Positions 2,910 through 49,871 of a DNA stretch of 64,000 nucleotides are shown here, one piece after another. This stretch comes from Auriscalpium vulgare (taxonomy: Eukaryota; Basidiomycota; Agaricomycetes; Russulales; Auriscalpiaceae), in the NCBI GenBank assembly GCA_019915015.1, contig JAHBBC010000002.1, positions 248,001 through 312,000 of the forward strand. Direction: 5' to 3'. The translations under genes and the position numbers were made by a program. The notes under the pieces were generated by a model that searched no databases, was not told the DNA's origin, and saw only the letters and a program-made list of their open reading frames with translations. How positions within the stretch are numbered: position 1 is the stretch's first letter; each line of letters opens with the position of its first letter.

Positions 2910-3364
2910 TGGGTGGCGCCGGCACTGCGTGGCCATAGGTAAGTCTACTTGCAGATTGGAAAGCAAGCCCCCTGACCTCATCCTTCAGCGAGATTGCGGG
3001 CAGTTGCTGTGATCTTCTTCTTTTCTTTCTTTTTCTTGCTTGGACTTCCTCGCTGCTAGAGAACATATTGCTTTTCGGCAGTCACCTTACACACACACAC
3101 AAATCACAGACAACTCCCGGCGCCGCAACGGCTATGCGCCCAGGAGCGATTCTCCCAGAACGAAAATACCTCTACACGTCTTCGACACTCCCTAGTCATT
3201 TCCAACGATAACGAGCACCACGCCTGTACTCAGCACTCGTAAGTATTCCTCCACAACGGCCAAGAAAAATAGCTCACCGTCAGTCCGACAGCTTGATCAG
3301 GTCGCACGGCAAGCTCGTCTGCTCTCCTCTCCCTTTGTCAGTCTTGGCGGAGAACACGCAACAC
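2910..3364. other. Non-coding gap
   Basis: No gene is seen. It contains a short (AC)n run near 3090 and otherwise unremarkable sequence leading up to the left end of element Y. Confidence 0.5.
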
Positions 3365-3536
3365 TGGGGAGTAGTTTAGTGCACTATGTCCCTACAGTTG
3401 TAACAAGTGGGTGGTGTTATAGGCAGGCAGGATAGTGAAGTGCAAGTATAGGGCAGTATAGTGCACTATAGTGCATATATCAGTACTATAGTGTCCTTGG
3501 ATGCACTATAGTAGTCGCATGACTATAAGGACCATT

Positions 3537-5804
3537 TACGATTACTCTTAATCGTTCTTTTCTCTAACCAGTCAGGCCAAAAAATGTGTGTTTGGATCGT
3601 TACCAAAGGAAATTATATCCCACGGTCAAGTCGCGTCGTCCCACCTGCCTAATTGAGTAATTCTTACCTAAGTAGCTTCTGCCCAATGCTTTTTCACACC
3701 TTTGCATCTCAAAAGACACTCGTGTCTGTGAGTATTTTGTGTTTTGCAAGCTAAATAGCACAGATATGCATATGATTCGAATTGTTCTGTGATGAGAATA
3801 GGAGGGCAAACCGCCAATTGATCCGGTTTACTATGTCATTTTTCTCTACTCCGGCTACTACAATACCCGGGCCCAACTGTTTCATTACTAAAAATCCACA
3901 CACAGTGGGAATTGAACCCACAGCACATGGTTCATAACTTACATAATATAGGCTAAGAGCGTCAACCACTAGACTACAAGGCTGCATATCTATAATAGTT
4001 GTGTATAGCTTGTATCAACCTTCTACCTCCTTGTGCCTTACAAAACATTTTGCTCTTTCTATCAGATTCTTGCCTTTTCCCTGATACAATGCACACATAT
4101 TATATATTGTCGGAAAGCTACAACCAATGCACACACAATGGTCATGGTGCTGGAGTCTGAAGGACTTGTGATGTATCTCTGGTGCGTATTTACCACCTGT
4201 GTGTAGACCCAGGTCTACCAAGCGCGGGCATGTGTAAGCCTACAGCTTACTACATACATTTTTCCTTTCTCTTTTCTCTCTCATCGGACTCGTACATAGT
4301 ATATATTCTCGTCCCCGTACTTACGCACCAGCGCGCCCCGGCAATCGCCGCGCCGCTGCCACGTCACAGTCGCGTTGTGTTCGCTCTGCTCTCTCTCTCC
4401 TCATCTACAACTGCCTCTCCTGTACCCACACCTCCTCTGCTTCCTAGCAATCCCGACTTGGTTCCTATCTGCGTCGCCTGATTCTTGTCTTTGAGTGTTT
4501 CCGCCGCACGGCGGTCTCCAGCATGTGACCAATGATAAGCCTCACTCCGCGCTCCGATACAATTCTTCACCAATTTTCGCACTTTTGACAAGTTAACAGT
4601 CATGCAATTCTGGAGGTTGGAGAGTCACACACATGAGCTCCAACCACCCGATATAGTCTCTCTGAATTCTTGCAAGATTGAAGCCAGAGTTCTGACCTTT
4701 GGAGTCTCGCAGGGCATTTGGGCGATCGGAATCATACCTTGGACACCACACTCAGACCATCAACTCAGTTGCACACCCCACACACAGTCATCCGACCACT
4801 TGCACATTGTTTCAACTGCATCCACATGACCTCAAGCATAGCATCCTCTCACAGCTGTCACAACTTGGCGGGATTTCATATGACATTTTTATTGTCGAGA
4901 TTGTTGTTAGAACATGTTCGCCACACCGCTCCAATAACTCTGTGACTGCCGGGTACCTCTATAGTTTGCGCCATTATCCTCCATCCATTGTCCAGCTTAG
5001 CTCTTGAGCTTACACCACATTTCTCTGATCTAGATTGTTCTGTGATTGCGCCAGTGCTCCAATTATTGCTCCACTGCTCTGACCGTTGCACACACCATTC
5101 CAGTACATTCCTCTGAACAATTGCAGTGTTCCAACATTGCAGCACTTGCTTACAACCTATCCCATATCGGAGCGCATTCTATTGCTCGCTGCGTCTCCAT
5201 TGTGTTCAATTATATTCATATTGTCTTGTCCCACACTGTAGGACACCTCTCCCACACTTCTTGACAGTACAGACCATTCCCCATGTGCTTGCACTGCCCC
5301 TCACTGGTCTCTTTATCTTTAATGGTCATACACACAGTGTCTGATCACTCACAGTTACTTGCATCATGTGTTCTTACGTCTGGACTCCCGTTGATAATTC
5401 TCCAAACGCTTGCACATTCCGATCATCACCTCCAATCACACACCCCACGCACATATGAAACACTCTGTTCGTCTTTGGGATCCTGACACTTGCTCACACA
5501 CATTACAATATCCTCTTTAGTGCTCTAGTAGGGATCTGGTTTCGGACACATGTGACATTACCACCCTACTACATGTGGGTGCCCAACACCACAACTTTGT
5601 CCTGACATTCCAATACATCATAGAGTCACTTTCCTGCAAGCAGAGCCAGAGCCATTAACCCCAAGTATTATATCTGCAACATATTCAAAACAACATAACC
5701 ATACCAGGCAGTCAGTTGTATGTTGGATGGCCAAGCCCCCCTCCCCCCTAAATGATTAAGAGTAATTGTACTGCCATGCGTGCATTGGCCCATTAACCCC
5801 AAGT
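3537..5804 (+). mobile_element. Element X, copy 1 (2268 bp), inserted in left arm of Y
   Basis: The 5' end is TACGATTACTCTTAATCG, itself a hairpin (6-bp stem, CTCT loop). The 3' end is ATTAACCCCAAGT. A near-copy of the 5' palindrome lies inverted about 35 bp from the 3' end. The undisturbed right arm of Y (7425-7465) gives the empty site: GGACCATT joins directly to GTATTCTTGC, so X1 sits between T and G with no target duplication longer than 1 bp. The inside holds a tRNA-like module (minus strand, near 3895-3985) and a 1-kb CpG-depleted repeat (4490-5560) shared with other sites in the window. No coding capacity is recognised; it is neither a classic LTR nor a canonical TIR element. Confidence 0.75.
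3895..3985 (-). other. tRNA-like module inside X1 (A and B boxes)
   Basis: On the minus strand, TAGTCTAGTGG (3966-3976) matches the RNA polymerase III A-box consensus TRGYNNARNNG and GGTTCAATTCC (3908-3918) matches the B box exactly. The T-arm GTGGG-loop-CCCAC is intact. The boxes lie 58 nt apart, more than in an ordinary tRNA, and no good acceptor stem closes it. It is therefore a tRNA-derived sequence, not a functional tRNA gene. The same module sits at 16761-16850 in X2. Confidence 0.6.
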
Positions 5805-7440
5805 GTATTCTTGCACCAATATAATGGGCTTTGAAAATGTTATAAATAATGGTGTAGATGCACAGGTGGAACTGCTATATAGAGGTAATTTAGCAGAATA
5901 TATCTGGCTAACGGTAGAGAGCTGTAGGGCAATCACTGGCCAATGGATCCCATGGGTTTATGTACTATAGTGAATCAATAATATATTACAGAAATGCTGG
6001 GATATATGCACCTTCTCTCCTTTCTCTATAAATTCGGATAATATTACAGCATGTGGCTTAGTAGAGTGCATATGTGACCTGAATTTACCAGAATACAGGG
6101 GGTCATTTCTGAGGAGTTGTGCAGTGCACACTGTATCAGATATTCATCTACTATAGTGATATTATACTCTTTAAAGCTTTCTTAATTTGTTATGGGATGA
6201 CTGGACATTCATAAATCATGAAGAAAAAGGTGAGCATATGTACCACGCATGCCACTGCTGTCTGAATTTATCATAATATTTAAGACTAATGGCAAGCCGC
6301 ACCAATGCATATATACTTATACACTATAGTGTTATTTAGCTTGCTTCTATCCTCAAACTTTTTCAGCACTGAATAGCTCCTCAATACTTGGGGAAACAAA
6401 TCCCTAGATATTCCAGAGCACTATTACACCATGCCCCTTCCATCCCTGAAAGTTTTGTGTCCTTGCATGCAATTGGTATATAGTACCATACTTCTGATCC
6501 TTTGATACAGCCTAAATGATCCATATGTCCCTGTCCCATCTATCCAAGCATATGTGTGAACTGAAATGATTATCTATTTTTCAATGAGCCATGATCCATG
6601 AAGCTTACTTGAGCACAAGCTCATCCATCTGAGGTACAAGATCCTCTGTAAAAGAAATAGCTATTTATATTCATATGCCTGATCATAAACTGGATCACCC
6701 TGGGACAAGGATACCTCAGACATTACAGGCTGTATGAGAGTGGAAGTACGGCACTTTCTGCCAACTCTAGATAGAATTCCCATATTTTGAGCATTGGGTG
6801 GGGCATGGTCTGTGAATGCTCTATGATATCTCTGGATTATATTGACCAAGTACTGGAGAGCTATTGGACACATCATATGCTTTTGTGGCCAACCAATTAG
6901 ATCACCACTATAGTGCACAAATCTATATGCCTTGGTGTGGCTCACCAATGGCTTCAGATATTATGATAAATTCTGACAGCAGTGGCATGTGTAGTACATA
7001 TGCTCACCTTTTTTGTCATGATTTATGAATGCCCAGTCATCCCATAACAAATTAAGAAAGCTTGAAAGAGTATAACATCACTATAGTAGATGAATATCTG
7101 ATACAGTGTGGACTGCACAACTCCTCAGAACTGACCCCCTATATTCTTGTAAATTCAGGTCACATATGCACTCTACTAAGCCACATGCTGTGATATTATC
7201 CGAATTTATAGAGCTCATTTGAAAGGAGAGAAGGTGCATATATCCCAGCATTTCTGTAATATATTATTGATTCACTATAGTACATAAACTCATGGGATCC
7301 ATTGGCCAGTGATTGCCCTACAGCTCTCTACCGTTAGCCAGATATATTCTGCTAAATTACCTCTATATAGCAGTTCCACCTGTGCATCTACACCATTATT
7401 TATAACATTTTCAAAGCCCATTATATTGGTGCAAGAATAC
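5805..7440. repeat. Inner inverted repeat of element Y
   Basis: 5805-6280 and 6957-7440 are near-identical inverted copies, about 480 bp each, around a 676-bp spacer (6281-6956). The arms begin with GTATTCTTGC on the left and end with GCAAGAATAC on the right. The spacer is AT-rich and shows distant similarity to 34,680-34,830. There is no gene. Confidence 0.8.
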
Positions 7441-7562
7441 AATGGTCCTTATAGTCATGCTACTACTATAGTGCATCCAAGGACACTATAGTACTGATAT
7501 ATGCACTATAGTGCACTATACTGCCCTATTACTTGCACTTCACTATCCTGCCTGCCTATAAC

Positions 7563-8514
7563 ACTTGGGGTCAATGGGCCAATGCATGCATGGCAGTACA
7601 ATTACTCTTAATTGTTTAGGGGGGAGGGGGGGGTGTCCATTTCCAGTACAACTCACTGTCTGTCAGTGTAGCTGTCTGCATATAATATAACAACCTGCTT
7701 CACCTCACGCTGCCTACCCTGCAACACACTGACCTGTTACCCCACCCTGCACTCTGACGCATCACGCACACAGCCTACATGTTCTGCACAACATCACACC
7801 ACACATTGCCTGCACAGTACCACAGTGCTATGTTGATATACTGACATACAAATATGTCATGCTTTACACTTCCTTTGCACTGACATACAAGTTAGCACAC
7901 TACCTGTGCTGTGACATGATACCCCATCTTGCATTGCACCCCACACTGCACATGCTGACATGACATCCCACCTGTTATTGTCCCCTTGCACAGACACAAT
8001 ACGCTACCATTCTGTAGGCAAGGGGATGGATGGTCCCTGTAGACTATACCTAGACACATTAAGTCAGTGTATATGTCTCTATTTTCTGTTAATCTATGCT
8101 GTTAGACTGTATTAAATTAGCTTAATATATAGGTGGTAGGTTCAGTACACACTTGTAATAGCTTGGGTAGAAAAAAAAATAACATAGTAACTTGGGTCAA
8201 CTGACTGATACCCAAAACCTCTGTCTACAACACCCGTGGGAACTTTTTTCCAAAAGAAAGAAAATATGAGGCCTGTCTTTCTCATCACAGAACAATTGGA
8301 ATCATATACATATCTAGACTAGTTAGTTTGAAAAGTGCAAAATACGTACAGACACGAGTGTGGGATAGAAAGTATAGGTAAAAGTCACTTAGGTAAGAAT
8401 TACTGAATTAGGCAGGTGGAACAGCCGTGGGAATAAATTTCCTTTCATGCTTTTCCTAAAGCGCACTTTTTGACCTGACTGGTTAGAGAAATAAACAATT
8501 AAGAGTTAATTGTA
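7563..8514 (-). mobile_element. Element X, copy 3 (952 bp), inserted in right arm of Y
   Basis: Read on the minus strand it starts with TACAATTAACTCTTAATTG and ends with CCATTGACCCCAAGT, the same termini as X1 and X2. The empty site is given by the left arm of Y (3400-3430), where GTGGGTGGT continues directly into GTTATAGGCAGG; again there is no target duplication and T precedes, G follows. It keeps the 5' third of X and the last ~100 bp but lacks the 1-kb repeat. It also lacks a clear tRNA-like module, so it is an internally deleted copy. Confidence 0.7.
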
Positions 8515-8564
8515 ACCACCCACTTGTTACAACTGTAGGGACATAGTGAATCAACTAAGCCCCA

Positions 8565-9330
8565 CAGCCCGCGACCGCCCATCCAGAACTTGGCTCATAC
8601 GACGTCGAGCACCGCGAGCGAACGTGAATGCGTATGCGGCAGCGAAGCCTCTGCTAGCAGATTTGCGCACGGCGCCAGTGTCGTCCTCGAACGAGTAGCT
8701 GTCGAGGCTTGTATGAGGGGTGGTCTCGTCCTCGTCAAGTCCTTGCAAGGCATGAGATACGAGTGGTCTCACATATCAGATGTGCGGCAGAGGCAAATCA
8801 GACGGGTGGCGAAAATACATCCGCACACGCCGGTCGCCATTCTGCTTGACCATCTCCACATCCCAGGCAAATCGCCAGCCTCTCGTTCTTCTCTCACTGC
8901 TTCATGGTGCTATGTTCTCTATTATCTCTTCAAGTTCAGCTTGGTTGCGCGCCGACTGCATCATGCTCCAGTGTTCGGTTGCCCCACCGCATCTATCCTT
9001 AAGCAGACTCCCGCACCGCGTGCCTTCATAGTAAGTATGCCTGAGTGCTGCGCGTAGGTTGTTGATTCCACGACAACTACCAAGGGCCGCGCCCTGTGCC
9101 ATCGACGGAAGCTCACACCGCCGACCAAGAGCGAGAACATACCTCCTCCTAGTGTTGATCATGTCTCCCTGCTTAACACCTCCAATCAGATCACATCCTA
9201 TCCATCGTTGACCTTTTGCTTTCATCAATACATCGCTGTCCCCAAAGCATGATTCCCAGCGACGATACTCCATCAATTCTCTTCACAACGTCGCTAGCTC
9301 ATTTAGCAACATAGACCAGCAATGGCCAGA
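8565..9330. other. No recognisable gene
   Basis: Moderately GC-rich sequence right of element Y with short open frames on both strands (for example 8590-9057). I recognise no domain and no convincing exon structure. It may hold the promoter or 5' exons of the zinc-cluster gene to the right. Confidence 0.35.
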
Positions 9331-9530
9331 TAGCATGCCGCAAACGACCTCAAAGTATAACTTAGACTTGCCACAATATCAATATCACCTCAACCCTCAT
9401 CCCGGCTACCTGAACCACCTCTCGAGGCTCATTTTGAACCTAGAGCCTTTCACCAGGAGCCCCTGCGTGCTCCCCTCTTCAACACTGATATCAACATGCT
9501 GCAAGCCTCTCTCGATACGTGGTACTTTGA

Positions 9531-10273
9531 GGCCGCCGCCTCTTCTACCTCCGTGATAGCCGTTACACCAACCGACGCTTCGAACAACTTCGCGATGTTT
9601 CAAGCAAGGCAGGCGCTTGCGTACAGAGGAATCCTTGCGGGCCATCGTATACGACGAAGCCACATGCTACCGCATGCGTCGATAGCAACGCCTGCCTCGA
9701 GCGCCCTGATACTCCGCGAGGCTCATCGCCGTCTTCGCACTCGGAGGTAGAATCGACGGTGAACGGCGTTGGCGTCATGTCGCAGACCGTGACCACCAAG
9801 CGGACCTTCCAGTCCTGTAAGCGGTGCCGTATCGGCAAAAGAAAGGTAAGAGCACCTCCCGTAACCATACCCATCGTAGCCGGCGAGCTGACTGTCTTCG
9901 TGTGCAGTGCTCCGGAGACCGTCCGGCTTGCTATCGCTGTCTTGTCAATGATTTCCGATGCGAGTATGACCCTAAGCGCAAGATGCGTGGCCCGAGCAAA
10001 CCCAAGCCGCTTGAAGCCACCATGACGAGGAGGCGAGGCCGGAACAAACCCAAGCCCCTCCCCCCTTCCAATACTCCTTCCTCGCCCAGCAACGAGCCCG
10101 ACCCTATCATCATCTCGCCGCAGCCCATCGCCAGCTGGCATGGCTTTTTGCCGTACCCGGCAGTCTGGTTGCAGGGCCCAGGAGCCAATCCGGAGCCTTG
10201 CGTCCAGACGGACGAGCACGCTATCGCAACATGTACAGCGGTCCGCCCATGCCATCCCCGCCGTTTTCTATAA
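9531..10273 (+). CDS. Zn2Cys6 fungal zinc-cluster DNA-binding protein, 5' end uncertain
   Basis: Exon 1 ends at 9845, the intron is 9846-9907 (GTAAGA...TGCAG, 62 nt), and exon 2 is 9908-10273. The spliced product carries C-x2-C-x6-C-x6-C-x2-C-x6-C, the pattern that folds around two zinc ions in fungal transcription factors. The intron falls just before the third cysteine. A basic Pro/Lys-rich tail follows. The only ATG in this frame near the motif is 9777, but the frame is open and coding-like back to 9531, so the true start is upstream. Frames upstream (9335-9430 and 9425-9600) also look coding but are in different phases, which suggests missed introns or small indels. No regulatory domain is visible downstream. 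Nuclear DNA binding is inferred from the family. Confidence 0.65.
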
Positions 10274-10441
10274 ATAAGTGCCCGTAACTTGCAACGTATC
10301 AGACACGCGGCCTTAGCCATCCAGGCAGATGGTGCTGGCTTTCATTAACGCAAGTTTTTCTATATGTCAGACGGCGGTATCAAATGGTTTCGGCACAGTG
10401 ATGACAATGCCACCAATCTAAGAGAAATATCTGGCCAGACG

Positions 10442-11272
10442 TCATGACGTCGGGCTCGCAGGTGGTGTGTATGCGTCTGTTGCGGCGAAACGCTCCTCAA
10501 CCTTCGCCTCGAGCTTCTTGAGCTTCCTCCTGATGGAGGTCATAACCTTCGCCTCCTTCGCAGCGCGCTCCTGTTCCCCAGCAACCTCCTCCTGAAGCTG
10601 CTTGAGGCCAGCTAAGCTCTTCTCCTATCCCTCTTCCACAATGGCGAGGCGTTCTCTGAGCGCTTCGGTTTCTCCAGCGTATTTCACACCCCACATCTGC
10701 ACCAGCTCCCGTGCCTGCGCCAGCTCTCCCGGCGCCTGCGCCAGCTGCGTCTCAAGACCTTCAACGCGCTGCAGTACATCACTGAGGGCCTTCTTCACAG
10801 TGTCTTCAACCTTCTGCGCGACATCTGACTCCATTTGGCCATGCTTGAGATGGACACGGTGCCACAATTTGTTGCCACGGCCTTCGGCCATGACCACTCT
10901 GCGATAATACCTGTGCTCTGCCTCGGCCATTTTCGTGACAGAGGATATGATACCAGAGAGCTCCGTCTCGGATGCAGAGAGACGCACATCAAAGCTCTCG
11001 CTGATGCCAGCGAGCTTCAGGTCATATGAAGCGAGACGCGCCTCCACTCGGGAAAGTTGCTCGGCAACATCACAGCCCTGACGAGCGTGGTCGCAGCCTT
11101 CTTGACAGTGATCGGAGATGGGATGCGCGCGTCGCTGGAATAGCGATTTGAGAAAGCCTAGATAGCTTTGAGCAGGGTTCTCAGAGGCGGTGCAGATGGC
11201 GTGTGCGTCGGGTGGGGGAAGGTGGTCGTCGGAAAGGATCAAGTCAGATTCCGAGAGGAACGGGTTCTGCAT
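10442..11272 (-). pseudogene. Coiled-coil protein gene with an in-frame TAG
   Basis: Starting at the ATG at 11,272, the frame runs through a long Glu/Lys/Leu-rich stretch with heptad character. Repeated Val-Glu-x-Leu-x-x-x-Leu-type segments suggest a coiled coil over most of the protein. An in-frame TAG lies at 10,625-10,627; the same frame then continues coiled-coil-like for about 60 codons to a TGA at 10,442-10,444. Either the stop is a recent nonsense mutation or sequence error, or the protein ends there (about 215 residues) and the rest is fossil. No GT-AG intron of plausible size removes it. Function unknown; no signal peptide or membrane segment is seen. Confidence 0.45.
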
Positions 11273-11779
11273 CGTTTCGTAGCGTCCGCGGGCAACGCAT
11301 TTTTGTTTGACGATCGGGTGGCTGGTACTACACATGTCAGAAACCGCCAGTGAAATGCAGGCGGGCGGCTCACCTGGGATATAGGAAGGGCAGGCTATAG
11401 AAGATGTGCATGCTAGGAAGTCGCTTTTTATACAGAGGGAATCGACCCGTCGCACAAAGGGTGCTTTGCTTCGGTCTTTGCATTGTTCTTTCAGGCAAGA
11501 ATGGGAAACCTTTTCAGTCATTTGTCCAGCAGGATGGCAAAGGTCCCGGTGTGCCAGTGCGATGCACATTCGGCGGGCAGATTGTTTATTCCACATCTAT
11601 ATTTGCGGACAATGTGAGAGCCCAAAGATGATGCGTCGTCAATGGAGGCGCGACATCTGGACCGGCCCGCAATATGACTCCCACGGGTGCACCACTTCCC
11701 AGGCGCATGCGCTTTGGCCTCCGCTAATTTTTTAACATCCTTTATTACCTATCATTTGCTGGCACCAGTCATCTGCAAC

Positions 11780-12124
11780 ATGATCCTCATTCTATCCTAC
11801 CTTCGGATCTCCACCAGGTCCTGGCCATATTGACGACGGTATGACTTTCCTCTTAGTGGAGGAAGAAAGGATGTCCAAGTAGAAGTCATCAACCCGGGAG
11901 ACGGAAAGCACTACCCCAGCCTGGCTGTCTGTCTTCCATCTCAGAAAGACGCTATCTGGCGGGCTAGAGCTTCCCCTTTGGATGTCAGTGGTGAGCCACG
12001 ATCCCTTCTACCGAGCGCCTTGGCCTGCTAGCCTGCCGAGGTGGACGTTCCTGCAATTGACAAGGAGGTGCGAGCGACTGCACGCGCTGGTGTTGACAAT
12101 GTTCTTCCAACCAGAGATCACTAA
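11780..12124 (+). CDS. Small hypothetical three-exon gene
   Basis: A consistent model has exons 11780-11817, 11857-11983 and 12032-12124, with introns of 39 and 48 nt that begin GT and end AG. Phases match at both junctions and give about 85 residues ending in TAA. The middle exon encodes a coherent acidic/polar sequence (Val-Glu-Val-Ile-Asn-Pro-Gly-Asp). The first exon is the weakest part, because another frame there is also plausible. No family is recognised. It lies 450 bp upstream of another small multi-exon gene of similar build. Confidence 0.35.
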
Positions 12125-12545
12125 AAGAATTTCTGCGCCGACATCAGCTGCTGTCTGATTTATCGGTTGCCGGTGACGAGTCACGACGACCATACGATAC
12201 GGTTTGTTATTGTAGTCAAGCACCGTGGTGCGCCCTGGTTGTCTCCTCTACGAAAAGCAGCCAGGCAAACCGTCTCAATGTGTATAGAGGAGACCGAAGA
12301 CGAAGGAGACGAGGAGGCAGTAGAGCACATGGAGGAGCCTGGCGTCCTGCCGACGTTTGAAGGTGCGCGTGTTTTGCTATCGAGTGCACGGCAGTCCCTG
12401 ATGCATCTGTCGATCCAGATAAGTACCGGCTAGCATATGGCCGAGTACTTGGACGGCTGCATACCCCTGACGTCCTCCATGTCGCACGTCGTCATGACAT
12501 CAATAGAACCTCAAGGTTGCCGCGCCCTCTTTGCTTATCAGATCC

Positions 12546-12552
12546 TATATAA
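12546..12552 (+). promoter_or_regulatory. TATA box
   Basis: TATATAA lies 33 bp upstream of the first ATG of the following gene. Transcription would then start close to that ATG, which makes the second ATG (12,588) a credible alternative start. Confidence 0.5.
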
Positions 12553-12578
12553 GCCCTGAGCTGTAGGACGATGCCTAC

Positions 12579-13343
12579 ATGTTTGCCATGGATCACACCA
12601 ACACGCTCGCCATGGATAGCGCTTTCAAGATCACCGTTAAAGGGGGCTTCACGCCTGCCACGGCACAGGATCTGGCGGCATTCCTAGCTGCCACCGGAAG
12701 CGATGTAGGTCTATTTTCCCAGCGTTGCAATCCGGAGCTATGCTGATGATCGCTGAATGCCTAGTTGAAGCCATTCAGGGGGCTTTTGTTTCCTTGCAAT
12801 CAAAGCAACTATGGCCTTGTCCTGATCCCCACCGTAGTCCCTCCCGCTGACGCAGATGAGACCGCGGAGACGTGCGCCCAGATATCCCCGATATTCGGCT
12901 CAGACGAAGGCGTCCACCGTGCGTACGTGAATGTCGAGGGCGAGGAGGGTGACTCCGACGTGTTGTTCGTCGTGATGTTTTGTCTCACAGTGCGTCTCTA
13001 AACCCTTGCCAACCTGCCGTTTTAAGATCGAAGATCCTCTCGAAGAAAACCAATCGGTGTTCAAGCTGTGCCCCTTTCTCCGCTGGTCGGGGCCGTTGCT
13101 TGTCATGCAATGCAATGAAGAGGGTAAGATCGTTGACTTCACCCTGTCCAATAAGGTCAGGCTGTCAGCTGAGAAAGCTGTCGTCAAGTACGCCTGGGCC
13201 TTTTTTCCTCCTGCCTGTTCAACAGCTGATTTCATTTGGGTAGATATGTCGATGTAATAACCACATCGATCGAGCTCCACTACGAGAACGGGGGAGAGGT
13301 TGTAGAGCCCGCTGATCTTCCGGAAGAAATCGACATGGATTAG
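12579..13343 (+). CDS. Hypothetical four-exon gene, about 203 residues
   Basis: Exons 12579-12704, 12765-12989, 13027-13187 and 13244-13343 join in matching phase through introns of 60, 37 and 56 nt, all GT-AG. The protein has about 203 residues, with a hydrophobic central region (Val-Leu-Phe-Val-Val-Met-Phe) and an acidic C terminus ending Glu-Ile-Asp-Met-Asp. I do not recognise the family. There is no signal peptide, and the hydrophobic stretch is too short for a confident membrane span. The 37-nt second intron is unusually short, but joining without it puts a stop in frame. A TATA box precedes the gene. The start could also be the in-frame ATG at 12,588. Confidence 0.55.
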
Positions 13344-13461
13344 TTAGTGTAGAGTACACGTACAGACCGGGGTCCTCGACACCTTTCTACACCTATGTGG
13401 AATCACAGTCCAGCTTGGAAATGAACGTATAAGACGCTTCTCCCGGCCGGTGCTTGGTCAC

Positions 13462-13740
13462 CGTTGAACGGCCGACCTGACAGTTCCGAGCGGACAACGC
13501 GTCGCGCGCGCGATCATCCAGCCACAGAGGCCAGTGGAAGCAGAGTTGGGAATCGATTATGAGGCGGAGTTCCAACACAGCACATTCCCGTCCACCTCCT
13601 CATACCTACTCTGGATCTCGAGCGGTAATAGAGGAACCTGTTTCTTCAACATGTCTGGGGGCACGTCACCCACGTATCAGGAAATTGTGTATCTAGATTC
13701 GACGAATAATGGCAAAACATCTCAAGATATGGCAAGTCTC
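13462..13740 (+). CDS. Probable internal exon of an unknown gene
   Basis: An open frame without an ATG encodes a coherent, mixed-composition sequence (Ala-Asp-Leu-Thr-Val-Pro-Ser-Gly and onward, with several aromatic residues) and ends near a possible splice site around 13,720. A second open stretch at 13,800-13,880 follows a CTGCAG acceptor. They may be upstream exons of the split gene at 14,073-17,640, but I could not join them with matching phase. No domain recognised. Confidence 0.3.
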
Positions 13741-14169
13741 TTTCAGTCTCTTTCGAGGCCATATATTTCATACGCTGACGCCTCTACTGCAGAAAACACG
13801 GCGCAAGCATTTCGTTGCAAGGCGCTACAAGACATTAGAGGGAGGGCAACTGGTAGATACAGAGAGAGGCGCTGGGAAGTGCGTCCATCCTGCGTATTTT
13901 CACTGATCTCGATCCGAACGTCGTTGCAGACAGGTTGTCAACCGACATATATCGGCCCCAGTGACCACAGAAAACGCCCAGCCGGCACGACCAAGCAGCG
14001 CTGTCCGTTTCTCGTCAGCGCTGTACGTTCATCCCATCTGTCTGTCTGCTTTAGATGATGTCTAAACTCCAGTCCCAGCAGCATCGGCGCCGAGGAGTAC
14101 AAATACTACAAATACATCCTCAATGTCCTCATGCAACATTCATCATCGCCAAAGATTCACACTATCGCC

Positions 14170-17100
14170 ACTTGGGGTTAATGGGCCAATGCACGCATGA
14201 CAGTACAATTACTCTTAATCATTTAGGGGGGAGGGGGGCTTGGCCATCCAACATACAACTGACTGCCTGGTGTAGTTATGTCCTTTTTGAATATGTTGGA
14301 GATATAATACTTGGGGTTAATGGCTCTGGCTCCGCATGCAGGAAAGTGACTCTGTGACTGTATTGAGATGTCAGGGCAAAGTTGTGGTGATGGGCACCCA
14401 CATGTAGTAGGGTGGTAATGTCACATGTGTCCAAAACCAGATCCCTAGTACAGCACTAAAGGGGATATTGTAATGTGTGTGAGCAAGTGAAAGAGACAAG
14501 TGAGGGGCAGTGCAAGCGCATGGGGAATGGTCAGTGCTGTCAAGAAGTGTGGAAGAGGTGTCCTACAATGTGGAACAAGACAATATGAACGGAATAGAAG
14601 ACAATGGAGATGTGGCGAGCAATAGAATGCACTCTGATATAGGAGGGAGTTGTAGGCAACTGCTGCGATGTTGTGACACTGCAATTTTTCAGAGGAATGC
14701 ACTGGAATGGTGTGTGCAATGGTTGGAGTGGTGGAGCAATAATTAGAGCACTGGCACAATCACAGAACAATTGGAATCAGAGAAATGCAGCATGAGCTCG
14801 AGAGCTGAGCTGTACTATGGTTGGAGGATAGGCGTGACTGTGGAGGTACTTGGCAGTCACAGAGTTATCGGAGTAGTGTGGCGCACATGTTCTAACAACA
14901 ATCTCGATGATCAAAATGTCATATGAAATCCTGCCAAGATGTGACAGCAGTCTGTGCTCAAGGTCATGTGGTCGCAGTCAAAACAATGTGCGAGTGGTTG
15001 GATGACTGTGTGTGGGGCATGCAACTGAGTCGATGGTCTGAGTGTGGTGTCCAAGGTATGATTCCTATTGCGTGAATGCCCTGCGAGACTCCAACGGTCA
15101 CAACTCTGGCTCCAATCTTGCGAGCGTTGAGAGACTAATTGGGTGGTTGGAGCTTGTCTGCGCAACTTTCTGACCTCCGGAATTGCGTGACTGTCGGCTT
15201 GTCAAAAGTGTGAACATTGGAAAATGATTGCCTCGCAGCGAGGTGACAAGCCTCGTCCCGCGCGCTGAGAGGAATTCTTAACTATCTTTTTGCAGTTTCA
15301 ACCAAGTCCTTGGTCACATTACCTAGGCCTTCCCGTGCCACAATTAGAACACTCTGCCGACTCCCATGCTACTCGCACTAAGCACCCGACCGCATGCCCA
15401 GTCGCCATACGCTAGCCAGCACAACATTTCCCATGCCTGTCACGGCGCATCAGATTTGCATTAGACTTGCACAGCCTGGTCGCACGACAGCCACGCCTGG
15501 CGCTACACAGTGCTGGTGCTCCCACGCCATCCGAGTACTGCCCCAGTTGCCCATTGTCCGCACCACTGTCCCGACCGCTCCAACACCCTCTGACTCAGCG
15601 CTCCCGACATGCCCGCTCCCCTCCAACACATCCTAGCATCTATCGACACATGCTACCATCTCATATTCATGAGCGCCTTGCGATTGACTCGCAACCCAGC
15701 CACTCCACATGTTGGAAGCATTGCCTCCCGAACATTCACGATCGGAAGACGCAGCCTTGTGTCACCATTATCGGACCACCGCTATCATGCTCAATATGGC
15801 ACGCCTTGTCTGTTCCCATGCTCCCCGAGGCTGTTTCCCACAGTCAACAACAGAGCCGATCATTTCCCGCGCTGTTTCCTTTGTCCTTTGACAGTGCAGA
15901 TCACTCGCTCGACATCGTCCCCTGCCTCGTTCCTCGTTGTCTGACTGTCGCATGACTCCCCCGCATTGTCCGTACCATTTGATATGATGCTGCTATCTTT
16001 ACCTTTGTCTTTCTGACATCTCTGTACTTACTTGATTGGACACGCACTGTATTTGTCACAACATATAAATAGTTGTCGGATACTCTGTGCAATGCAAGTT
16101 ACGTTCCCCCCTCATCGCTCCCAGCACATTTCATTTGTGCACTATTGTCGCCTTCGTATCATATAGCGGTCAACACCGGTTGACTGCTCTGGCGCCTTAG
16201 CCTCAGCCATCGTCTTAGCCTTTGTTCTCGCTTCCTGTCTCATCGCTCCCATCTTGTTCCATCCTTGTTGCCTTTGCCCGAGTCATCGATTGCAGTCGCG
16301 TTGCAGTCTTCCGGCGTCGCTCGTCTTGTCACCGTCGCGCCCTCAATCGGAACGCCATAGGTTTGATCTGAGATGGTCGTTGCTTACTCCGGGACTCCTG
16401 ACGCTCGCTCGCACACACATCAACACCCTCGGTAGCGCTCTAGGGATCTGGTCGACTCTGCTGTTTACTGCCCTACCTGGTGGTGTCCATCAGCGGAACG
16501 AGGAATATCATCAGCGTGAATGCACTTGGTAGATCTTGGTCTACACACAGGGAAATATGCACTGGCTAATACATCACAAGTCCTGCAGACTCCAGTACCC
16601 TAACCATTGTGTGTGCATTTATTGTAGCTTTCTGACAATATATAATATGTGTATATTGTATCAGGGAAAAGGCAAGAATTTGATAAAAAGAGCAAAGTGT
16701 ATTGTAGGGTAAGAGGGGATAGAAGGTTGATACAGACTATCCACAGCTGTTCAATGAGTATAGCCTTCTAGTCTAGTGGTTACTGCTCTTAGACTATGTT
16801 ATGTAACTCATAAACTGCATGCTGTGGGTTCAATTCCCTCTATGTGCGCATTTTTAATAGTAAAAATATTAGGCCGGGTATTGTAATAGCCGGAGTAGAG
16901 AAAAATGACGTAGCAAACCGGATCAATTGGTAGAATGCCCTCTAAAACTACGTCATCTTTCTCTGCATCAACCGTGGGAACTTTCTACCAAAAATGGAAA
17001 CTCTAAGGCCTCTTTTTCTGATCACAGAACAATTTGAATCATGAGCATATCAGTGTTAGTTAGCTTGCAAAACGCAAAATACTCGCAGACACGAGTGTCT

Positions 17101-17275
17101 TTTGGAGCGAGGATGTGGAAAAGCATTGGGCAGAAGCTGCTTAGCTAAGAATTACTGAATTTGGCAGGTGGAACAACGCGACTTGACCGTGTGAGACCAT
17201 TTCCTAAAGCGACTTTCCTGACGGGCACTTTTTGGCCTGACTGGTTGGAGAAAAAAACGATTAAGAGTAATCGTA
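14170..17275 (-). mobile_element. Element X, copy 2 (3106 bp), inserted in a host exon
   Basis: On the minus strand it begins TACGATTACTCTTAATCG and ends CATTAACCCCAAGT, identical in design to X1. Flanks are T before and G after, with no target duplication beyond 1 bp. It contains the tRNA-like module (16,761-16,850), the 220-bp segment 16,515-16,745 also found in X1 (4005-4230), and the 1-kb repeat in the same relative orientation (14,440-15,260). About 1.2 kb extra (15,260-16,510) carries a second, oppositely oriented repeat of the same family with a TATAAATAG box near 16,065. That extra piece explains why X2 is longer than X1. Confidence 0.75.
16761..16850 (+). other. tRNA-like module inside X2
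   Basis: TAGTCTAGTGG (16,769-16,779) and GGTTCAATTCC (16,827-16,837) match RNA polymerase III A- and B-box consensus sequences. They have the same 58-nt spacing as in X1. Sequence flanking the module on both sides is shared with X1, so it travels as an internal part of X, not as a tRNA head at the end of a SINE. Confidence 0.6.
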
Positions 17276-17637
17276 AAGGTCTTATCCCGCGATGTGAGCG
17301 ATCCTGGAAAATACAAGTCGGTCCTCACTGGGCATCTGGCCACCTTGGACCTCGACTTTGAAACCGCGATTGAGCTTGACAAGATACTACGGCCGGTCGC
17401 CCAAATCGCCTCCAGGTATGTACACGATCATCTTCGAGATGAGAGGATTGACCAACGTCTGCGTCTGTACAGCTCTAGCATTCCAGGAGCCTTCATTCAT
17501 GGTCCAACGCCTGCCAGGGCACCGACACCTCCCGCACCAGAGGCAATCCGCACGCGCCAAAAGGTCGATGCCCTTTCCACCACGCGCCACGCTAGATCGT
17601 TCTCGTCCGCAAGCGGTGCTGGAGAAACGGTCTGGCA

Positions 17638-17690
17638 CTTGCTGGGAGTGGGCCGGTGCGCAGCACGGCGGTACGATTCCACTCTCAGTT
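17638..17690 (+). repeat. Short repeat shared with 36,596 and 47,043
   Basis: About 50 bp starting ACTTGCTGGGAGTGGGCC recur at 36,596-36,650 and 47,043-47,097. Most differences are CpG to TpG or CpA changes. It interrupts the preceding proline-rich exon and probably marks the edge of an older insertion of unknown type. Confidence 0.4.
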
Positions 17691-17909
17691 GGACTCAGAT
17701 TTCTCTAGAATTTCTTTTATATTACATATATCTATTGCAGGTACATTGGATGAATATAATGACTACTTAGAGCATTCAGGGCAGAGCCCCTGCTGCACTG
17801 TGTGACACTGCTATGCAACTGGGCCGCTCGCCCTGCAATGCACTGGACAGCGGTGGGCGAAGCACATATCTCGGGCTGCGCGCTACGGGCTACTTTGGTA
17901 TGGGCAGAT

Positions 17910-26695: not shown

Positions 26696-29600
26696 ATATT
26701 CCATCGCTCTGTATTTGTACGCGGAAATCAGTCAAATTCCATGCGTTTTTCTATTCAACTGCAGAGCGAACAAAGAGCCGAGATAGCAGCGTTGATCGAT
26801 AGTGGTGCTACCGCAAACTTCTTGCATCAGAAGCTGGTAGACCGCTATAAGATCCCTGCTCAAGGACTTCCGCAACCGATCACGGTCAGAAATGCGGACG
26901 GAACGCCCAACAAAATGGGCGTAGTCACGAAGTACGTCGAGATGGACTACTCCATGGATGAACATCAAGGACGAGCACGATTCCTGATCACGGAACTCGG
27001 GCAAGAGAACATTATCCTTGGTCTTCCATGGTTGCAGAAGAACAACCCACACATCGACTGGAATCAAGGAACAATGCAATTCGAGCGATGCCCGCCGATT
27101 TGCCAGATGAAGACCTCCAACTGGCGGTCTATTGCGATCAAGATGATCGAAAAGAAGGCTGGACGACGACAGCGCATCCAGCGGATGAAGGAAGCCTTTG
27201 TACACCGAATGGAGACAAAGGCGCAGACAGAACAAGGAGCGGAAGAATTCTTACGAGGATATTTCGCCGAACAAGGACTCGACACAATTGATGTCGAAAA
27301 TAACGACGAAATCTACTGGAACCCAGGGTACGGAAGGACAGAATGCACAGAAGAGACCCTCAGACGAACAACCCCGGCGCAACAGATGGCGGAACAAGCA
27401 GCGGACAAGACGGCCAAGACATTTGAAGAAATGGTACCGGAGCAGTATCGACCGTTCCACAAGGTGTTCTCAGAGGAAGAAGCACAACGATTTCCCGCAG
27501 AACGACCTTGGGATCACGGAATAGAACTGAAAGACGACGCTCCGAAGACGATAGACTGCAAAGTGTATCCCTTGACAGCAATAGAACAAGAGGCATTGAA
27601 CAAAATGCTTGAAGAACACGTCAAGAAGGGATACATTCGTCCATCAAATTTACCATACGCATCCCCTTTCTTCTTCGTAAAGAAGAAAGATGGCAAACTC
27701 CGTCCGGTACAAGACTACAGACAGCTCAACGACAAAACGATCAAGAATCACTACCCCCTTCCTCTGATTCCCGAACTTATCGACCGCATCAAGGATGCCA
27801 AGATCTTCACGAAGTTCGACGTACGGTGGGGGTACAACAATATTCGGATCAAGGAAGGCGACGAATGGAAGGCCGCATTCAAAACAAACCAGGGACTATT
27901 CGAACCCTTGGTTATGTTCTTTGGGCTCACGAATTCACCGGCAACCTTCCAAACAATGATGAACGAGCTGTTCAAAGATCTGCTTGCCACAGGAAAAGTC
28001 ATCATATACATGGACGATATCCTTATCGCAACAAAGGATCTTGAAGAACATCGACGACTGGTGACACAAGTTCTCCAACGACTTCAGGATAATGACCTCT
28101 TCCTGAAGCCGGAGAAGTGCGCTTTCGAGCAAGACGAAATCGATTACCTCGGAATGATTATCGGAAACGGACATACGCGCATGGACCCTATCAAGATCCG
28201 CGGTATTGAAGAATGGGCTCGACCAACCACGGTGAAACAAGTCCGTGGATTCCTTGGTTTCGCCAACTTCTACCGCCGGTTCATCCAGGACTTCGGACGC
28301 ATATCAAGGCCACTGAATGACCTCACAAAAAAGGACACGAATTCGTTTGGACCACGGACTGCGAACGAGCGTTTAATAATCTCAAACGACGCTTTACCAC
28401 AGCCCCAGTCCTGGTACAGGCAGATCAAACGAAGCCCTTTATCGTGGACACGGACGGGTCAGGCTTTGCCTCCGGAGCGGTACTACAACAGAAGGATGAC
28501 CAGGGACGACTCCATCCATGCGCATTCGACTCGCACTCTTTCTCGCCAGAAGAACGGAACTACGACATCTATGATCGTGAACTCCTGGCGGTGATGCGAG
28601 CCCTCGAGACATGGAGACATCATCTCCGAGACGCACAACACACGGTGACGATACGCACAGATCACAAGAATCTGACGTATTTCAAGAAGGCACACAAGCT
28701 GAACAGAAGACAAGCCCGATGGGCCGAAGAACTGATGCAGTACGATCTACACCTCGTTCATATTCCGGGAAAAACCAACGGCGTTGCCGACTACATGTCG
28801 CGCAACTGGGAACTAGACGATGGAAAGAAGGACAACGAAGATCGCATCCTTCTTCCCGAAGAACTATTCACAGACCCGGAACAACGACAACAGGTGCGAA
28901 CAGCAGAAACAAGCGGAGTGGCCAGCATAGGACTGGACCAATTACGCGAGGACATCGAGAAGGCAATCGACAACCACCACGAGGAATACCTGATGGGTAT
29001 CAAGAAGAAGAACGGCTGGTCGACGGACTACGATGCAGAACGGCAAGTGGCAGTTTTGTTATACCAAGGCAAAGCTTTTGTCCCAGAAGCATGTCGACGA
29101 GACGCACTACGGCGATTCCACGATCACCCGGCATTTGGACACCCTGGCATCGACAAAACTCTTCTCCTTATACGAGAAGAATTCAACTGGCCGGGAATGA
29201 AGGACTATGTCACAGCATACGTCAATGGCTGTGGCAATTGCCAGACGGTGAAAAATCTACCCAATCGCAAAAAAGCGCCACTTGTGCCGATTCGACCTGC
29301 AGCGGACGCCCACCCCTACGACACGATCTCTGCCGATTTCATCGTCAAATTGCCCGTTAGTGATGGTTTCGACTCTATCTTGGTCGTGGTGGACCACGAT
29401 CTTACGAAGGGGGTAAATTTCATTCCTTGCAATGAAACCATCACGGCAGAACAGACGGCAGAACTCCTATACATCCATGTGTGGCGAAGATTCGGACTTT
29501 CGAAACGATTCATATCCGATAGGGGTCCCCAATTCGCGTCCAAGGTAATGCGAGCGTTATGCGCAAACCTGGGCATAGAACAGAACATCAGCACGGCATA

Positions 29601-30432
29601 CCACCCCCAGACGGACGGACAAACGGAGCGGGTCAATCAAGAACTGGAGCAGTACCTCCGAGCATACTGCAACTACGCGCAAGACAATTGGGCAAAGCAA
29701 CTGCCTATGGCTGAATTCGCGCATAACATCCGACCACACTCCACGACAAAGAAATCCCCGTTCGAGTTACTCATGGGATATCAACCACGAGCAATCATGC
29801 CGAGAACGATCACGTCCAATGTCCCGACAGCAGCCGCAAGGCTGGGAGACCTCCTCAAAGCACGACAGCAAGCGAGAGAGGCGCGAAAAGTCAAAGACCA
29901 ACTGGTGGCGAACCGAATCCGAAACAACCTTCGACCTCTGAAGGAAGGAGATGAGGTATTACTTGAAGCCACCAACTTGAAAACGACACATCCGACGGCG
30001 AAACTGGCACCAAGACGCTACGGACCCCTCAAGGTCAAGCGGGTACTAGGGCCAGTGACGTACGAACTAGAGATCCCGAAGCAATGGAAGGATCGAGGCC
30101 TTCACCCGGTTTTCCATGTCAATCTCCTAACGCCGTACAGAGAGACTGCAGAGTACGGGAAGAACTTTGAACGACCACCGCCTGACCTCGATGACGAAGG
30201 ACAAGAACAATGGGAGATCGAGACAATCCTCCAATCGCGAAAGTACCGGAACAACGTACAGTTCTTCGTCCAATGGAAGGGCTACCCCGAGTCAGAGAAC
30301 TCGTGGGTCGCAGCAGCAGACATGGGAAGCGCACTGGAATTGGTAGAAGAATTCCACGAGAAGAACCCCGCAGCAGTCCACATGACGGACACGATGCTGA
30401 AGAAGCTGGGGAAACAAAGGGCCGACCAATGA
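26661..30432 (+). pseudogene. pol: Chromovirus Pol (PR-RT-RNaseH-IN-chromodomain), one frameshift
   Basis: The first part (open from the gag overlap; first ATG 26,741, to about 28,345) has the protease motif Asp-Ser-Gly-Ala-Thr and a complete reverse transcriptase with Tyr-Met-Asp-Asp. Near 28,345-28,352 a base is missing (ACGAATTCG), and coding continues in the next frame to 30,432. There follow RNase H (Asp-Thr-Asp-Gly-Ser; Asp-His-Lys-Asn-Leu-Thr-Tyr) and the integrase zinc domain (His-Pro-Ala-Phe-Gly-His; Cys-Gly-Asn-Cys). Next come the DDE residues (Ser-Ala-Asp-Phe; Ser-Asp-Arg-Gly-Pro-Gln; Thr-Glu-Arg-Val-Asn), a GPY/F-like module and a chromodomain (about 30,210-30,370) with Trp-Lys-Gly-Tyr. 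The lesion falls between RT and RNase H; without it the copy would look functional. Chromodomains direct integration to heterochromatin marks in related elements. Confidence 0.9.
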
Positions 30433-34766: not shown

Positions 34767-34795
34767 ACATTGTTGTAGGATTTTGATACTTTCAG

Positions 34796-35312
34796 GGGTC
34801 GGTGGGGCGTGGTCTGTGAGTGTCCTCATTGCCCTTGCACTACGTCGCTCCGACCGTCTTGCGACATCGGAGATCGCAGTCGCATTTCTCTCGTCCCGCA
34901 GAGATCGCACCCTCGATCGGATCGTCCGCACCACTCGTCCCTGTCTTCCGACCGTCGCCCCCACTCCTCCGACTGTTCACACGGTCGGAACGATTCAGCA
35001 TTGTTGTCTGCACGACCCAGTGTTGCTCCGACCGTCTTGCGACCTCGGAGATTGCAGTCTTGCTTCTGTCGTCGTGCAGCGGTCGCAGCCTCGATCGCAC
35101 CACTTGCACCACACATTCCGACCATCGCATCTGCGCCTCCGACCCCTCATTGACGACTCTCCGACCGATCACGCGTTACGACCAGCGCCTCCGATCGCAC
35201 ACCTCCCCACACTCGTCGGAGACGCACTCTGATTGTCTTCGGGACCCTGACACTTACTTGCACACATCACGGTACCCTCACCAGCGCTCTAGGGATCTGT
35301 GGGTGCGCATCA
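34796..35312 (+). repeat. CpG-rich 3' part of the 1-kb repeat (unit A)
   Basis: Matches 5380-5560 at its end (GACCCTGACACTTACTTGCACAC... AGGGATCTG) and contains repeated CTCCGACCG motifs. The copy in unit B is 45,243-45,759. Long frames on both strands reflect composition, not genes. Confidence 0.6.
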
Positions 35313-35472
35313 CTGGGTCCTGTCTAAGATGCACGCGCGTGTGCGCACGCCATACGTATGATTGTCCAGCCTTGCTTACACAGAACGTGCTGTACACGGT
35401 GCTGGCTTCTGGCCCGCCAGGTCTACATGAAAGCTGTGTGCGAGACACGAAGACAGCTCTACTTACACTCAT

Positions 35473-36263
35473 ATGCGATGGGTGCGACCGTTGCGACCGT
35501 TGCGTTGGACAGGAGGATTGGACTATGTGGTCGAGATATCAAGGTGAGTATCGCTCATGGTCTGAACTCTGTCGGAGTAAATACAAAGGGCACAATGCGA
35601 TGACTGACAGCTAGCAGCGTGCACGAAGGATCAGACATCCGATCCACGGGTTCCGTGCGAGGCACTCACACCGTCATCCCATTTGATCCCAATATATGCA
35701 GGCTATCTCAGCAGGTAAATTTCATAAGGTATTCAAAACGATTACGAGCTTGTCGAGTGGTTTGCGATGTTTTCCAATGCCTTTGTCAGGAAGCCGGTCA
35801 CAGGTGAATGAGCGCCGACATCTGCGCCTCGTCTGCGAAGGTAGACATCGGATAAACGTTATCAATAACGCCACGCAGCGTCCATGCTGCATCCTCCCAT
35901 CGTGAAGCGGGCCCGCGCGTGACAGAACTTTCCATAAAAGCAGAGCGGCTGCCCAAGAGGGCTGTATCCTGCTTTACCTTCATCCCCTCGATCTTTTCCA
36001 AAGACCTTCCAAGTACAAATGGTAAGCGCATGCACCTACTCGCTCTTCCCGGTCTCACCTTTCAGCAGAACGTTGAGCCGAACATCCCTGGTGCGGTCGA
36101 GGTGAACGTTGCTGGTGCGGCGGAGATGCATGCCCCGGTCGCCGCTGATCGCCTCGACGATGGCGATCGAAGCATGGTAACAGGCCCCCCGATCCACGCC
36201 CACGAGGACCTCGCCCAAGCCGCGGTCGTGAGTTTGTTTACATCGTTTAACTGCCGATACTAG
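35473..36263 (+). pseudogene. Remnant of a small multi-exon gene (unit A)
   Basis: Exons 35473-35543, 35618-35714 and 35790-35807 join in phase through GT-AG introns of 74 and 75 nt and give a 61-residue frame (Gly-Leu-Asp-Tyr-Val-Val-Glu-Ile). Further exon-like stretches follow: 35,900-36,025 (Thr-Glu-Leu-Ser-Ile-Lys-Ala-Glu) and, after an intron ending TTTCAG, 36,066-36,177. I could not connect them without breaking frame. It was probably one gene that has decayed. Family not recognised; style and size resemble the genes at 12.6 and 19.0 kb. Confidence 0.3.
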
Positions 36264-36888
36264 CACTTTGTGAGCCTAGCGCAGGGCTGCTGGATGGCAC
36301 TAGTGGAGCAAAGTCAAGCCAGCATTGACTGAAATTTTGACGCCGCGTGATAGTCTCTATCTTGGCAATTGCCGCAGACAGAGTATTGCCTGGATGCTGC
36401 AGATCACTTTGACGCTGATTGGGCGCCGCCGTGAGTTCTGCCTGAAGCCGTGCCTATTCATTTTTGAGTCGAGCAAGGTCAAATAGCGCAGATATGAGAG
36501 GGGGAGATTATCAGAGAGCTCTGCAGATAGCTCTTTATTAATTTGCAACACCCGCACAGCGCGCGTGGGCATCCCATTGTGCTGCATATGATACTTGCTG
36601 GGAGTGGGCCGACGCGTAGCGCGGCAGTACGATTCCGCTCTGAGGGGGTTTCTGGTTACATAATCAAATGATTATATAAATAATAGTCTTGAGACACTAC
36701 TTGACACTAAAACACAACTGGGAGTGGCCCTGGTACCAAATTTAAGTGATGGTGGGCAATACTGTGCACTGGAGGGCATCACAATTTACATAAGTTGGGT
36801 GTGCAGCTGCAGCTGAGGCGGTTGTTGTGGCCTGTGTTGTCTGGTACAACTCAGTTGTCAGTTGCTTCTGGCAGCTGCCCACAAGTCC
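36264..36888. other. Non-coding, includes the 50-bp repeat at 36,596
   Basis: No gene. Contains the TGCTGGGAGTGGGCC repeat shared with 17,638. The unit B counterpart is 46,711-47,335. Confidence 0.45.
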
Positions 36889-37778: not shown

Positions 37779-38343
37779 ACCGAGCCCGATGGCCCTGACA
37801 ATATTTACACATACATCTAGCTACCATGGCATAATATGACTATATTTTCAAGGTATTATACTGTGAGGAAAGCATTTGACGGAGCAAAAGGTCAAGGTTA
37901 CCATGGAATGAGCAGAGTCATCACCTCAGAGAATGGCCATTTGGCCTCCGATTGCTGAGAGATTTGGCAGACAGTGTAACTAGTGTCCTGTTATGTGCTT
38001 TGAACAGTACTTTGGATTATGTGTTGGCATTTGCGGGTCCACCGAACAAAACAATGCTGGGAAGGGTGGTAAGCGTGACAGCCGCACGCCGCTTGTGATT
38101 CAAGCTCCGCCCGATGCCGTCGCTGCATCCGTCGCCGCAGCTGCCCGCAAGGTTGCCGTCTCCGCTCACACTCGCGTCCTCTGCAGGCAGAGAACACAGT
38201 CTTATGCTCAGTTTTGTCTTCCACTGTGCTATGCTAAACATCTGACATCTTATCTCGGACCTGTGTCTCGCTGCTCTGTGCTGGAGAGCCCGCACTTTGA
38301 TCTGAGCCACTCTGCACCTTCGACGGACAGGCTCTGGACTCAT

Positions 38344-39417: not shown

Positions 39418-39424
39418 CATACAT

Positions 39425-39690
39425 TACACATGTGAAATTACCACCCTACTACATGTGGGTGTCCATCACTGCAACTTTGCCCTGACATTCCAATACAGTC
39501 ACAAAGTCACTTTCCTGCACGCGGAGCCAGAGCTATTAACCCCAAGTATTATATCTGCAACATATTCAAAAGAACATAACTACACCAGGCAGTCAGTTGT
39601 ATGTTGGATGGCCAAGCCCCCCTCCCCTCCCCCCTGAATAATCAAGAGTAATTGTACTGCCATGCGTGCATTGGCCCATTAACCCCAAGT
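39425..39690 (+). mobile_element. 3' end of an X element (unit A)
   Basis: Matches the last ~265 bp of X1, from the ACACATGTGA motif to ATTAACCCCAAGT. It then joins chromovirus integrase sequence at 39,691 (TCATATCTGAC). The 3' boundary agrees with the ends defined from X1-X3. Its 5' side is truncated against the pogo-like fragment. Confidence 0.65.
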
Positions 39691-40804: not shown

Positions 40805-41007
40805 GGATAACTTCCCGTAAGCCGCGCCAGATTTCAGACGGGTCTCAGGCCGGACCTGAGTCGTCTGAAGCCGGCGGCTCCAGACCGTAAGGCCATATCC
40901 GGGCCCAAATCAGCACGCGATGCCAGATTGTACAGTACATAAATTGATTGTGCACGAGCTATGAGCTATCCTTTCCCCCACCCGACGCACCACGCTCCCG
41001 CTACGCA

Positions 41008-49864: not shown

Positions 49865-49871
49865 CATACAT

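Follow-up and report, generated by a model that had tools for sequence, protein, structure and literature searches.

Background

Helitron2-type rolling-circle elements lack TC...CTRR ends and have an end design of asymmetric repeats (PMC3627910; PMC5148889). In the Helitron2 group as described by Bao and Jurka (2013, PMC3627910), asymmetric inverted repeats occur together with a 5' hairpin that holds the 5' repeat, a 5' T and non-autonomous members, and one element, Helitron-1N1_CRe, inserts without duplication. Helentrons and their non-autonomous partners, termed HINEs (HINEs/DINE-1; PMC4067079), show palindromic repeats in a subterminal position near either end, insert in a T-linked manner and include non-autonomous families, while the FoHeli elements of Fusarium oxysporum (PMC5148889) combine, in a fungus, asymmetric repeats, a 5' hairpin, non-autonomous copies and multiple 5' termini. 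All these features recur in the subject of this work, X, a family of mobile elements represented by three copies, X1 to X3, in a 64,000-nucleotide stretch of the Auriscalpium vulgare genome (the window; G000:C2:248001-312000 of an assembly of 51.6 Mb in 96 contigs, where Cn:position gives contig label and coordinate). We propose that X is very probably a non-autonomous Helitron2-type family moved by a Rep/helicase (RepHel) protein.

Among mushroom-type fungi, a Helitron2 has been described in Agaricus bisporus, where it is known from its TET/JBP gene cargo (PMC12730594). The Pleurotus ostreatus Helitrons HELPO1 and HELPO2 carry PF14214 and PIF1 domains and are unlike X in their T[C/G] and CTRR (or CTTG) ends and their AT target (PMC4289320). 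In the open-access literature, judged largely from titles and abstracts, we found no non-autonomous Helitron2-type families of mushroom-type fungi with a comparable analysis of ends. Non-canonical Helitrons easily escape searches by structure, since these, like the one made for Pleurotus, seek CTRR ends (PMC4289320).

The ends of X carry asymmetric terminal inverted repeats

Reading the ends of X1, X2 and X3 (Table 1) bore out the extents and the precise shared termini that an earlier note had assigned to them from the window alone. The elements begin with TAC and end in CCCCAAGT; they have no TC...CTRR ends and no A/T target (a slash marks the insertion point). One base from the 5' terminus, within the 0-2 bp of the Helitron2 design, lies a hairpin with a stem of 7-8 bp. 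In X1 it folds at -4.6 kcal/mol (z -4.2, with 0 of 200 shuffles as stable), and in X3 it reaches z -6.2 (1 of 200 shuffles as stable). An inverted near-copy of the X1 5' repeat, matching at 17 of 19 positions, lies 34 bp from the 3' end, and none of 20,000 base shuffles gave as good a match; compared over 21 positions, the 3' and 5' repeats of X1 agree at 19. The two repeats of X3 carry identical changes, which also appear on both sides of its hairpin, so that the repeats have changed together as a paired function would require. Judged from these sequences, the end structure of X is the asymmetric terminal inverted repeat (ATIR) of Helitron2/Helentron elements. The earlier note had seen the 5' palindrome and the near-copy about 35 bp from the 3' end, and was right to point to the Helitron/Helentron neighbourhood; the missing TC...CTRR ends are no obstacle to this assignment because Helitron2-type elements lack such ends and have the same end design as X. 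The 3' ATIR lies at 34 bp both in X1 and in six RepHel 3' ends described below, a few bp beyond the first published range (about 20-30 bp in the Helitron2 group; PMC3627910); in FoHeli1/2 and mite HINEs the reported position is 38-60 bp.

X inserts after a single T without target duplication

Among copies fetched from across the genome, the base before the element is T at 37 of 37 distinct 5' junctions. This count excludes three rows in which the 5' query had matched misplaced 3' repeats, and patterns starting with TTAC, which presuppose the T, were kept out of the test. Ahead of this T, at position -2, we observed A12 G13 T12 C0. On the other side, the element is followed by A13 G11 C10 T8 at 42 distinct 3' junctions. 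The proposed T/G target, in which G always follows, is thus ruled out: since the next base is free, the rule becomes T/N, and the G that follows all three window copies is due to chance, while the claim that T precedes them holds throughout. All 42 of these 3' junctions terminate in CCCCAAGT, a result of how the search selected them that provides no independent test.

The copies X1 and X3 lie within Y, an inverted-repeat element at window positions 3365-8564 that, by alignment, has arms of roughly 700 bp and measures about 2 kb once X1 and X3 are taken out. The right arm of Y provides the empty site of X1 and the left arm that of X3, as had been claimed; 40 bp across each join are identical, and longer alignments run without a gap at the junction. 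We also compared the joined flanks of 19 paired copies with all fetched sequence, and five gave paralogous empty sites, making six with that of X3: X1 (99% identity), X3 (96%), C2:347427 (98%), C14:504654 (91%, whose empty relatives are two RepHel loci), C44:186006 (71%) and C2:2489338 (90%, its empty site within tandem repeats). All six read T/N, with X3 at GGT/GT, and none has a duplication of 2 bp or more; at most one T could be duplicated, and this T may be assigned to element or target alike, since T stands on either side of the boundary. Moreover, flanks diverge between copies directly at the proposed ends. The view that nothing longer than 1 bp is duplicated, and with it that of a mobile family inserting without target duplication, is therefore supported, with no longer duplication at the six empty sites and no homology past the ends in the copies compared.

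For X2 the earlier note had proposed a host exon that reads through once the element is removed. We found no empty copy of this site in the fetched sequence. On the + strand the joined frame is 201 aa long with only 37 aa to the left of the junction, its right-hand 163 aa have no Pfam match, none of 85 candidate matches reached E<=0.001, and the minus strand offers at most 54 aa; the exon is thus unsupported. The joined flank of another copy, L016, gave spurious matches only, because this flank is itself an X 5' end. Both L016 and L066 are X copies within, or in tandem with, the 5' repeat of another X.

A clean insertion by itself does not separate a rolling-circle protein from other duplication-free enzymes, and X could in principle be moved by a tyrosine recombinase (Crypton) or a serine recombinase. 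The hairpin with its subterminal inverted copy is, however, the published Helitron2 design, and the X 3' end is common to RepHel loci at a fixed distance (see below); we hold a recombinase, for which no search of the genome was made, to be very improbable.

Copies of X fall into discrete length classes

A search of the genome with both ends, as the earlier note had suggested, yielded over 100 ends. A 99-base 5' query returned 141 candidates, 40 of which were scored and matched; a 67-base 3' query returned 170, of which 40 were scored. Pattern searches gave 53 type-1 3' ends, 73 type-2 3' ends and, allowing up to two mismatches, 129 5' ends. Pairing by coordinates assigned a same-strand 5' end within 15 kb to 41 of 56 type-1 3' ends. 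Tight length classes account for 32 of the 41 pairs, and for these the pairing is secure: five of 944-952 bp, seven of 2174-2354 bp, 13 of 3086-3113 bp, three of 3312 bp and four of 3779-3788 bp. The other nine, all above 5 kb, may be nested or false, and some reuse a 5' end; one of them, C2:2489338-2495306, is backed by its own empty site. With 90 exact 5' ends, 35 of the 73 type-2 3' ends form pairs, 18 of them at about 2.55-2.59 kb, where lengths and distances are approximate to about 15 bp as the type-2 pattern lies just inside the terminus. The length classes suggest that a few master copies were amplified recently.

At 18 of 20 places entered, one subfamily has a second sequence like a 5' terminus, 245-253 bp inward of the first (for example C4:547705/547958, C1:872220/872473 and L095), an arrangement that resembles the multiple 5' termini known from FoHelis. 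At C24:658117/657803, a distance of 314 bp separates two 3' ends.

Some RepHel loci share the 3' end of X

The Helitron Rep domain PF14214 is represented by 50 rows in this genome, 48 of which stand as loci, with the two rows of the C2:1758 gene taken as one and C93 not included; one more entry, C6:974282 (minus), was mistaken and does not count. Downstream of 11 of the 48, an X-type 3' end occurs on the same strand within 12 kb, and in eight it lies 5767-5817 bp from the first base of the Rep domain. We read six of these eight 3' ends: all end in CCCCAAGT and are followed by six different flanks, and all have an ATIR 34 bp inside that matches the X1 5' ATIR at 19-21 of 21 positions. One such RepHel 3' ATIR folds too (z -5.1). 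RepHel group 1 and the copies X1 and X2 show 82-88% identity over the last 115-119 bp, up to AAGT; for X3 the identity is 80-93% over the last 70-115 bp. One further 3' end, C3:1030830, was rejected as that of a RepHel element: its partner is a 5' end at a distance of 2.57 kb, and a nested copy is the likelier reading.

The fetched RepHel pieces contain DUF6570 and Helitron_like_N domains, an HUH pair (HLH) and two tyrosines (Y-x3-Y). Helitron helicase relatives numbered 587 at E<=0.001; the 120 listed include proteins with PF14214 and a PIF1 helicase, and nine of the 120 bear species names (in Piloderma, Athelia, Peniophora, Tricholomella, Tetrapyrgos and Agrocybe), three of which, when looked up, proved to be Agaricomycetes. 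It is from these relatives that we infer a putative helicase part for the RepHel partner of X.

Two of the loci, C24:627392 and C10:1116461, match each other at 95-100% in probes placed some 7.4, 10.4, 11.4, 12.1 and 12.9 kb upstream; at about 14.4 kb they no longer do. The unit that they share is therefore at least 18.7 kb long, with a 5' end that probably falls between C24:613081 and 614501. Two other proposals for RepHel 5' ends were considered. Of the 5' termini 22-28 kb upstream of RepHel loci, the one at C10:1084324 was rejected as the locus's own 5' end, the sequence 20 kb upstream being single copy; and C24:671315 was not accepted as the 5' end of the RepHel element C24:663933, as two relatives are 100% alike over 249 bp at that distance and remain alike further out.

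A RepHel of a different kind, possibly a canonical Helitron, is present at L031 (C18:949340), with the motifs GLPHMH and YVTKYLHKG, which we take to be those of canonical Helitrons. This locus would provide a driver if X were the passenger of a canonical Helitron (Helitron1), but X has neither TC...CTRR ends nor an A/T target, and it does have the 5' hairpin with asymmetric inverted repeats; we give this alternative next to no credence.

Weighing the Helitron2-type assignment

The Helitron2-type label refers here to the end design together with the 3' link to RepHel loci. Several observations weigh against a Helitron2-type family moved by RepHel. The hairpin after the 3' repeat has a short GCCA/TGGC stem of at best 4-6 bp that is no better than shuffles in four variants (z +0.5, +0.7, +0.5 and -0.1), in which X differs from the Helitron2 group (PMC3627910). 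The target of X is a single T, as against TTTT/T or TTTT/C in that group (PMC3627910) and insertion within TT in Helentrons and HINEs (PMC4067079). No exact X-type 3' end lies within 12 kb of 37 of the 48 RepHel loci, nor was one seen at the expected 3' place of L099, which we checked directly, and L041, one of the eight loci, has an in-frame stop just ahead of its Rep domain. Finally, the RepHel 5' end is expected within an interval of roughly 1.4 kb, of which we read 650 bases; these contained no X-type 5' end, and pattern searches found none in this interval.

As to the target, insertion into TT was tested and does not describe X, with A12 G13 T12 at position -2 and a free base at +1, so that X is not a strict Helentron. 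We do not count a TTTT or TT target as defining, because targets vary among described Helitron2-type elements. FoHeli1/2 have the target TNAT/A, and FoHeli termini (TCAG...ATTTT, TGCCT...CTCCTGT) also differ from those of X; FoHeli3-5 have no 3' hairpin (PMC5148889). As a family X is ordinary in kind, a new non-autonomous Helitron2-type family; it differs from the described members considered here in its single-T target and its unsupported 3' hairpin, the latter shared with FoHeli3-5.

The RepHel 5' end bears on a further alternative, that X is of Helitron2 type and its true partner another RepHel, the eight loci having gained an X-type 3' terminus through readthrough or chimera formation. Only the 3' terminus has been shown to be shared, with no X-type 5' terminus where the RepHel 5' end is expected, and composite ends do exist, as the double 5' and 3' termini described above demonstrate. 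However, the 3' distance is constant in eight loci from diverged RepHel groups, and the ATIRs of the six loci match the X1 5' ATIR at least as closely as the 3' ATIR of X1 itself does. We consider a different RepHel partner unlikely, if still a reading to be reckoned with. The earlier note had suggested a search for an autonomous relative carrying Rep/helicase, a tyrosine recombinase or another integrase; for RepHel, eight of 48 loci share the 3' end at a fixed distance, and no X-type 5' end was seen.

Proposed mechanism

What we observe directly for X are its ends, the ATIRs that change together, insertion at T without duplication, the size classes and the RepHel loci that have the same 3' terminus at a fixed distance. 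No frame stays open for more than 106 aa in X1, 179 aa in X2 and 76 aa in X3; without coding capacity, X must therefore presumably be served in trans. From these observations, we hypothesize that relatives sharing this 3' terminus would supply a RepHel that works in trans on the ends of X. Following published Helitron models, RepHel would nick at the 5' T beside the hairpin, one strand would be displaced, and displacement would stop at the point at which pairing between the 3' and 5' inverted repeats becomes possible, with a cut after CCCCAAGT; the copy would then be joined into a target nicked after T, without staggered cutting.

More tentatively, X and its relatives might form a distinct Helitron2-type lineage, possible though doubtful on present evidence, with a single-T target (the preceding base not being C), a lost 3' hairpin and an autonomous form of at least 18.7 kb, encoding a RepHel with an N-terminal DUF6570 domain, that would serve several non-autonomous families of different interiors and the same ends. 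With its exact ends, several empty sites and near-identical length classes, X offers a good starting point for the detection of Helitron2-type elements in mushroom-type fungi, and the family should be useful for measuring their target choice.

Features of the window

Table 1. Copies of X in the window, with their terminal repeats and natural empty sites
Feature	Position	Strand	Description	Remarks
X1	3537..5804	+	2268 bp, non-autonomous	ends read; empty site in Y right arm; among 7 paired copies of 2174-2354 bp
X2	14170..17275	-	3106 bp, non-autonomous	ends read; among 13 paired copies of 3086-3113 bp; no empty site
X3	7563..8514	-	952 bp, non-autonomous	empty site in Y left arm; among 5 paired copies of 944-952 bp
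5' ATIR and hairpin of X1	3538..3555	+	stem 7, loop 4	
3' ATIR of X1	5752..5770	+	ends 34 bp from 3' end	
5' ATIR and hairpin of X3	8495..8513	-	G-to-A and C-to-T changes from X1 on both sides of the stem	
3' ATIR of X3	7597..7615	-	same changes as X3 5' ATIR; 21/22 positions	
5' ATIR and hairpin of X2	17257..17274	-	identical to that of X1	sequence read
3' ATIR of X2	14204..14222	-		sequence read
Natural empty site of X1 (Y right arm)	7421..7460	-	junction 7440/7441	
Natural empty site of X3 (Y left arm)	3393..3435	+	junction 3415/3416	
3' end of a further X copy	39426..39690	+	92% identical to X2 over 266 bp	no 5' end seen

X1 and X2 are 82-94% alike across four blocks; the likeness of X3 to them is confined to about 260-320 bp on the 5' side and 100-110 bp on the 3' side. 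In X1 (5654-5666) and X2 (14309-14321), ATTAACCCCAAGT occurs a second time, about 138 bp short of the true 3' end and not preceded by an inverted repeat, possibly as an older or bypassed terminus. By eye, we noted what we take to be tRNA-like A/B box motifs in X1 (3900-3990, minus) and X2 (16755-16850, plus), in the same orientation relative to the element. ARAGORN found no tRNA genes at default settings and, at lax settings, doubtful models only, mostly with introns; Rfam gave no match at E<=0.1 across window positions 3001-17700.

The 3' end of the further copy recurs at 50137, inside a tandem duplicate block, and an uninterrupted relative of its site, at 29509, has T before the junction. 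The block is a head-to-tail repeat of 10.45 kb (34767-45213 and 45214-55664) with 99.94% identity between its units, and is either a recent segmental duplication or an assembly effect. The surroundings are rich in repeats, with retrotransposon domains, presumably Gypsy-type and Copia-type, at 26741-30429 and 58253-62609.

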